A stretch of 64,000 nucleotides of DNA from Herbiconiux sp. SALV-R1. GTDB lineage: Bacteria > Actinomycetota > Actinomycetes > Actinomycetales > Microbacteriaceae. This document shows, piece by piece, positions 60,639-61,200 of this stretch. Location of the stretch: contig NZ_CP053344.1 of NCBI RefSeq assembly GCF_013113715.1, positions 124,001-188,000 on the forward strand. Direction: 5' to 3'. How positions within the stretch are numbered: the stretch's first letter is position 1; each line of letters opens with the position of its first letter. The notes beneath the pieces are model-generated. The model had not been told where the DNA came from. It saw nothing but the letters and a program-made list of their open reading frames with translations, and did no database searches. The position numbers and the translations under genes are program-made.

Positions 60639-60700
60639 CGACCGTACCCCGGTCTCGCCGCTTCGGCTTTGGCGTGTCGCGCTCCGCGGGAGCAAGATGG

Positions 60701-60724
60701 ACATTCGAATACACTTTCGAATGT
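60701..60724 (+). promoter_or_regulatory. LexA (SOS)-like box
   Basis: ACATTCGAA-N6-TTCGAATGT: 9-bp perfect arms (60701-60709, 60716-60724). The inner TCGAA-N6-TTCGA has the spacing of the actinobacterial LexA box (TCGAAC-N4-GTTCGA), differing only in the bases next to the centre. It ends 11 bases before the start codon of the next gene. Confidence 0.65.
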
Positions 60725-60735
60725 CTGGAGGCGCG

Positions 60736-60993
60736 ATGAGCACCATCGATCTCACCGAGGTGGCCACCATCTGGTTCGCCGACGCGCTGCCCGTGCGCAT
60801 GCTCTGGCAGCGCGAGCGCTGGCGCGTCACCGACCGCCCCACCGAACCCGAGGGCCTCTACTGGGGCACCCACGCGCCCGACTTCGCCGCCTGGCGCTTC
60901 CAGGCCACCAACGAGGCCGGCGTCAGCCGCGTCTTCGACGTCGTCCGCCGCCACGGCGGCCCCTTCTGGAACGTCACCCACATCTACGACTGA
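60736..60993 (+). CDS. Small protein behind a LexA-like box (DUF6504-like?)
   Basis: 85 residues from ATG 60736 with GGAGG five bases upstream; ATG 60721 lies inside the box and is less likely. Trp-rich: PVRMLWQRERWRVTDRP, DFAAWRFQA, GGPFWNVTHIYD. This resembles the small DUF6504 proteins that accompany ImuB/DnaE2 mutagenesis genes in Actinobacteria, but the likeness is by eye only. Here it stands alone. Its control by SOS is inferred from the box. Confidence 0.65.
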   Translation: MSTIDLTEVATIWFADALPVRMLWQRERWRVTDRPTEPEGLYWGTHAPDFAAWRFQATNEAGVSRVFDVVRRHGGPFWNVTHIYD

Positions 60994-61026
60994 GCCGCCG
61001 GCGCCGCGCTGCCGCGCTGCCCCGTG

Positions 61027-61105
61027 CGAAACGACGGAGTCTCGGCGCATTCCACCCGAACGACGGATGCTCGGGCCGGTTCCGCGACAGGACTCCGTCG
61101 TTTCG
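61027..61105. repeat. 15-bp inverted repeat between convergent genes
   Basis: CGAAACGACGGAGTC (61027-61041) and GACTCCGTCGTTTCG (61091-61105), perfect, with a further CGAACGACGGA inside at 61058. The word is shared with 151-230. Confidence 0.85.
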
Positions 61106-61140
61106 CGGTGATCGGCCGCCGGGACGCGGGGTGGCAGGCC

Positions 61141-61200
61141 CCCTACGCGCGGGTTCCCTACGAGCGGGTCACCTACGCGCGGGATCCCCACGCGCGGGTG
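61141..61200. repeat. Four 15-bp tandem units across the dfrA stop codon
   Basis: CCCTACGCGCGGGTT, CCCTACGAGCGGGTC, ACCTACGCGCGGGAT and CCCCACGCGCGGGTG follow each other without gaps. The dfrA reverse stop codon (61173-61175) is in the third unit, and the last codons of the gene are made of the repeat. Confidence 0.9.

Follow-up and report, generated by a model that had tools for sequence, protein, structure and literature searches.

The window analyzed here is a 64-kb stretch (C1:124001-188000) of the 4.52-Mb genome of Herbiconiux sp. SALV-R1, a soil-type actinobacterium (Microbacteriaceae). It contains a small gene, encoding a protein of 85 amino acids, that is preceded by a LexA-type box and lies between msrB-msrA upstream and folA-thyA, on the opposite strand, downstream. 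The preliminary description of this DNA portrayed the gene as standing alone, with no polymerase gene adjoining it, and the neighborhood bears this out on both counts. The features of the locus are the following (positions are those of the window):

60669-60679, + strand: conserved promoter element TTGGCGTGTCG in the -35 position, the sole full match in the genome
60693-60698, + strand: -10-like hexamer CAAGAT, read from the sequence, 18 nt after TTGGCG
60700-60725, no strand assigned: putative LexA (SOS) operator with perfect 10-bp arms and a 6-nt spacer; core TCGAATACACTTTCGA at 60705-60720
60727-60731, + strand: ribosome-binding site GGAGG, assigned from the sequence
60736-60993 (stop included), + strand: solo DUF6504-like family protein, 85 aa; a conserved ORF with GGAGG before the ATG

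Just 3' of the gene, positions 61026-61106 hold an inverted repeat of 23 nt whose copies are 87% complementary and separated by 35 nt; it may terminate transcription in both directions, that of the 85-aa gene and that of the converging folA. A direct repeat with a 15-nt period follows at 61134-61193.

The upstream box had been described as a TCGAA-N6-TTCGA palindrome that ends 11 bases before the gene. The palindrome is present and is longer than claimed: GACATTCGAA-TACACT-TTCGAATGTC, at 60700-60725, is a perfect 26-bp palindrome with 10-bp arms around TCGAA-N6-TTCGA. It does adjoin the gene, but the distance from its 3' end to the ATG at 60736 is 10 bases, with the GGAGG in between. Its core is the sole exact TCGAA-N6-TTCGA in the window; in the entire genome, the exact pattern occurs in 10 places, compared to one for a control pattern read backward. 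When one mismatch is allowed, 404 places are found in the genome against 44 for the backward control, but these matches mean little because they are mostly codon-driven. Judging by spacers and open frames, about half of the 10 exact places precede genes: besides the 85-aa gene itself, these are the imuA'-imuB-dnaE2 operon, genes for a SplB-like radical-SAM protein and an AlkB-like 2OG oxygenase, and an unnamed gene from a region of lower GC content. At G000:C1:2784737-2788752 (L040), an exact SOS box, TCGAACATAGTTTCGA, is found in a 56%-GC island along with a resolvase-like frame. A frame of 129 aa follows this box; it has no Pfam match and is a candidate for another unnamed SOS gene.

Comparison of homologous loci places an exact box no more than 200 nt upstream of the gene in 107 of the 125 distinct loci (128 minus L048, L053 and L069, which are duplicates caught by a second domain), a box with one mismatch in 14, a box with two mismatches in two, and no box in two, which are low-scoring paralogs. 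Thus, the box is retained with at most one mismatch in 121/125 loci and in 118/119 of those with strong members, whereas control windows from the same homologous loci contain the exact box in 9 of 2219 cases. This conservation rules out a chance palindrome. The inner box positions are T/T here, where C/G is the norm: 91% of the 121 boxes have C and 66% have G. The same genome encodes LexA (LexA_DNA_bind, 3.2e-22, and Peptidase_S24), and lexA itself is preceded by box-like sites, one of which, TCGGATACAGTTTCGA, shares the inner T with the box at 60700-60725. Taken together, conservation of the operator strongly supports the SOS control that was originally proposed for this gene, so that LexA control of the 85-aa gene can be considered well supported at the level of comparative genomics. 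The literature searched yielded no paper on LexA/SOS boxes of Microbacteriaceae.

A second conserved element, TTGGCGTGTCG, precedes the box core by 36 nt in Herbiconiux sp. SALV-R1. Across many genera, 66 of 121 loci have it 24-48 nt upstream of the box with no more than one mismatch (46 of these matches are exact), compared to 0.08% exact matches and none with one mismatch in 2420 control windows. Given that the full TTGGCGTGTCG is found a single time in this genome, it does not serve Herbiconiux sp. SALV-R1 as a general promoter. If TTGGCG is read as the -35 hexamer, -10-like hexamers follow 17-18 nt downstream (CATAGT or TATGCT in relatives, CATAGT-like in the genus, CAAGAT here), which would place the transcription start inside the LexA operator. 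Among the literature matches listed for the 10-mer of this element, none has a bacterial-promoter context.

Homologs of the 85-aa protein, referred to here as the solo family, were identified in 23 of the 60 relatives searched (own genome counted) and in 139 of 299 genomes of the bacterial family, representing 50 of 85 genera. The closest homologs on named contigs come from Herbiconiux, with identity of at most 79%. The dN/dS values within the genus range from 0.05 to 0.20 and, combined with the conserved frame, rule out a non-coding ORF. The origin of the gene from a phage or plasmid was rejected as well: the gene is chromosomal and has a fixed place in the genus; the search for mobile-element relatives gave two on plasmids and no phage match, PHROGs returned nothing significant and PADLOC returned nothing. 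The alignment of the family is characterized by the pattern P-x-R-x-x-W, R-V-x-D-x-P-T, W-R-F-Q, F-D-V and W; the C-terminal tryptophan W78 is invariant in all 72 aligned members (alignment A4, with 72 of 83 representatives, L022, L092, L108, L121, L142, L146 and L167-L171 having been dropped).

The predicted structure of the protein consists of six beta strands (pLDDT 88.3, pTM 0.78), that is, a small all-beta domain with a conserved C-terminal tryptophan, as would be expected of ImuB-C. A Foldseek search of the PDB with this model produced no match at E 0.001, and no sequence relatives were found among solved structures. VIA-align gave a best Z of 5.4, to kinase N-lobes, which is no better than for common beta arrangements.

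The preliminary description likened the protein to DUF6504 (PF20114). For the single sequence this does not hold, as the window protein matches none of the Pfam or NCBIfam families and has no PF20114 match up to an E-value of 10; at the profile level, however, the relationship is clear. PF20114 is matched by 4 of the 23 solo-family members (best E-value 1.7e-4), and L139, a member adjacent to imuA/imuB, scores 30.4 bits against the curated cut-off of 24.2. An hhalign comparison of the solo family with DUF6504 yields a probability of 97.8% (E-value 1.2e-12) without the bridging sequence and 98.1% with it. The two groups have in common the pattern P-x-R/F-x-x-W ... W-R-[FV] ... FD[VL] ... W-x-[LV] and the LexA-type box upstream, which is exact in 12 of 13 DUF6504 loci. 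Thus, homology of the solo family and DUF6504 is firm at the profile level. There are also clear differences. The window protein has lost the W-x-E-R-x-x-W-W stretch, its gene is not beside a polymerase, and the solo family occupies its own side of the tree: in a phylogeny of 76 of the 83 solo representatives (L142, L146 and L167-L171 were dropped) and 13 DUF6504 sequences, the two sets of rows fall on opposite sides of one branch with 99/90 support, although the alignment has only 92 columns. DUF6504 is not named in the literature searched.

The genomic context of DUF6504 was examined in 13 loci (L153-L165) from the same order. A DnaE homolog is encoded downstream, on the same strand, in all 13, and directly so in 11; in L156 and L163, it is separated from the DUF6504 gene by ~2.9 and ~4.8 kb. 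These polymerases show 39-59% identity in the main segment to a reference DnaE of the same kind, taken from G018, which belongs to this set of loci, compared to ~26-32% per segment (at most 40%, in one short segment) to DnaE1 and DnaE2 of the Herbiconiux genome. They are often longer than 1200 codons and possess a conserved C-terminal OB-like stretch. In 8 of the 13 loci, the DnaE homolog is followed by DinB. Of the suggestion that DUF6504 proteins are found near ImuB/DnaE2, the polymerase link therefore survives, but the partner is different: it is a third kind of DnaE, accompanied by DinB in those eight loci, and not ImuB/DnaE2A. This DnaE resembles the published DnaE2B, a name that we assign from published context and not from DnaE2B sequences. 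The available text of PMC12926913 describes DnaE2B + ImuB-C systems with and without PolY, and the layouts of the DUF6504 loci match these.

DUF6504-like genes are also common on Arthrobacter-type plasmids (L218-L221 and 43 plasmid records, 24 of these 43 conjugative), and the plasmid relatives that were read have umuDC, an ATP-dependent ligase or SRAP nearby. The relatives are located either behind umuD-umuC and before the ligase gene, or near a ligase or SRAP gene; in pACHL02, the relative follows the umuD-umuC pair and an exact box precedes umuD. The umuC, ATP-dependent ligase and SRAP contexts are among those listed for ImuB-C in the part of PMC3765255 that was available. Given that both the DnaE2B-type layouts and the plasmid contexts match the published ones, DUF6504 appears to be the stand-alone ImuB-C, an equation that is our own and is drawn from genomic context and published descriptions.

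As described in the accessible parts of PMC3765255, PMC6511836 and PMC12926913, stand-alone ImuB-C resembles the solo protein in size (~80 aa), beta-rich composition, SOS linkage and the conserved C-terminal tryptophan, and the contexts of its genes (DnaE2, PolY, UmuC, ATP-dependent ligase, SRAP) recur among the DUF6504 and plasmid relatives. Direct comparison of the solo-family profile with 28 ImuB C-terminal domains from the same bacterial family (alignment A5, 28 of 30 ImuB rows) gave a non-significant hhalign probability of 13% (E-value 0.0022); an HMM search against ImuB C-terminal domains of this family gave a best E-value of 0.38, and a merged profile 1%. Viewed separately, the models of the solo protein and ImuB-C are both mostly beta, with similar last three strands, and the ImuB-C model has no PDB match at E 0.001 either. 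The C-terminal domain of the ImuB encoded in this genome is intact, and the idea that the solo protein stands in for a missing ImuB-C was therefore rejected.

The imuA'-imuB-dnaE2 operon of Herbiconiux sp. SALV-R1 lies ~1.46 Mb from the 85-aa gene and is preceded by the same type of box, TCGAACATATGTTCGA; the proposed search for dnaE2/imuB with this box elsewhere in the genome was thus successful. Upstream of the imuA' box, at G000:C1 ~1648000 (L039), there is also a GTGTCAGTGG stretch that resembles the mycobacterial PafBC/RecA-NDp promoter motif. In S. venezuelae, the LexA-bound dnaE2-dinP genes have TCGAAC-type boxes (PMC9380542) that are similar to those described here; the available main text on this regulon names no DUF6504-like protein.

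Across the genomes of the bacterial family, ImuB is present in 118 of the 131 with a strong solo-family member, a DnaE2B-like polymerase only in 12, and neither in one (G160, in which an imuA match is located 1.7 kb from the solo gene on a 7.4-kb contig). Among the genomes without the solo gene, 93 of 168 encode ImuB, and 148 of 168 either ImuB or a DnaE2B-like polymerase. This count left out G018 (the bridging gene), the weak solo hits in G069, G148, G223, G239, G253, G307 and G327, and the weak ImuB hit in G285. The association of the solo gene with ImuB (118/131 vs 93/168) has a Fisher p of 2e-11, which is uncorrected for shared ancestry and to which reduced genomes contribute. Because ImuB is common anyway (211/299 genomes) and related genomes are not independent, the co-occurrence is only moderately informative. 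The absence of the solo gene from 93 ImuB-bearing genomes of the 299 indicates that it is dispensable for the mutasome. As described in the available text of PMC12926913, DnaE2B systems that include ImuB-C belong to genomes from which ImuA/ImuB are missing, whereas the solo protein mostly co-occurs with complete ImuB; the 16 of 299 genomes with both ImuB and a DnaE2B-like polymerase do not fit this rule. In three genera, the solo gene is found near imuA/imuB, and in seven genomes a distance of 3.3-5.5 kb separates it from the 3' end of imuB, both genes being on the same strand. In L139 and L144, separate boxes precede the solo gene and imuA, so that the two do not form one operon. Thus, the solo gene resembles the ImuA'-ImuB-DnaE2 mutasome in the type of regulon, in presence in the same genome and, in three genera, in location, but differs from it in being a separate transcription unit that encodes none of the three known subunits.

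These observations are best compatible with a freestanding ImuB-C-like beta protein that is repressed by LexA and acts in trans on DnaE2 or the mutasome, a reading that we consider rather likely. The gene would form a single-gene transcription unit, with LexA bound at 60700-60725 covering the predicted transcription start and abutting the ribosome-binding site. Upon DNA damage, release of LexA would allow the solo gene to be expressed along with the distant imuA'-imuB-dnaE2. Its product, a small DUF6504-type protein composed of beta strands, would act in trans, unlike its polymerase-linked relatives, most likely docking on DnaE2 (on the side of the PHP domain) or on ImuA'/ImuB. According to the available text of PMC12926913, the barrel of ImuB-C packs against the PHP domain of DnaE2 in AlphaFold models. 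In the simplest scenario, the solo barrel would bind this ImuB-C surface of DnaE2 or a neighboring one, and error-prone synthesis would be adjusted or licensed by the solo protein, which could either help or limit DnaE2. The gene thus probably encodes a separate protein that assists or regulates the mutagenesis induced by DNA damage; we infer its role in the mutasome, and an accessory function is the best-supported guess among the readings considered. A more specific version is somewhat unlikely: here the free barrel, SOS-induced from a dedicated promoter, would compete for DnaE2 with the C-terminal domain of ImuB, so that DnaE2 would change partners or error-prone synthesis would be turned off.

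A different proposal is that the protein is a damage sensor: it would bind DNA that is damaged or single-stranded and bring in repair enzymes, including SRAP (SOS-associated peptidase), without being a polymerase subunit. DNA binding was proposed by the authors who named ImuB-C (in the available part of PMC3765255), a plasmid copy lies near a SRAP gene, and 9 of the 125 loci, from 8 genera, have a SRAP gene within the flanking DNA that was retrieved (a raw count). However, SRAP is not a neighbor in the remaining 116 loci, structure comparison of the predicted model found no DNA-binding fold, and the polymerase linkage on the DUF6504 side is far stronger, so that a sensor appears improbable.

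To a similarly low degree, the protein could work with a Y-family polymerase (DinB, with RecA) and not with DnaE2, like the stand-alone ImuB-C of published systems that include PolY. The DinB genes downstream in eight DUF6504 loci and the umuD-umuC arrangement in pACHL02 point in this direction, and the Herbiconiux genome encodes two Y-family proteins in addition to ImuB. Nevertheless, among the matches listed, which extend to ~1.0 Mb and thus past both genes, no box-like site is located just upstream of either dinB-like gene, so that these genes are not obviously co-induced with the solo gene, and the clustered solo genes are found near imuA/imuB, not dinB. Finally, an ordinary small damage-response protein under LexA control, e.g., a cell-cycle or nucleotide-pool factor with no tie to error-prone synthesis, would agree with the monocistronic gene and with the folA-thyA neighborhood that is nearly constant in Herbiconiux (both genes in 13 loci), but is very unlikely, given that outside the genus this neighborhood is absent while the box stays, and that the solo family is firmly homologous to the DUF6504 proteins with polymerase linkage.

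Neither stand-alone ImuB-C nor the SOS control of mutasome genes is new; the difference here is a clade without polymerase linkage that has its own promoter and is found in cells equipped with a complete ImuB (the literature cited includes PMC3919608 beside PMC12926913, PMC6511836, PMC3765255 and PMC9380542). Induced mutagenesis by ImuA'-ImuB-DnaE2 drives adaptation and is implicated in mycobacterial drug resistance, but little is understood of how it is controlled after release of LexA. A separately encoded ImuB-C-like protein beside a complete ImuB would be a small, deletable candidate regulator of this process. If the free barrel does compete with ImuB, this would contradict the picture of stand-alone ImuB-C serving cells without ImuA/ImuB, and the gene-specific TTGGCGTGTCG would amount to a second layer of control. 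The analysis thereby suggests a likely pathway for a family whose window member is unrecognized by the Pfam and NCBIfam models, and strong members of which are encoded in ~44% (131/299) of the sampled genomes of the bacterial family.
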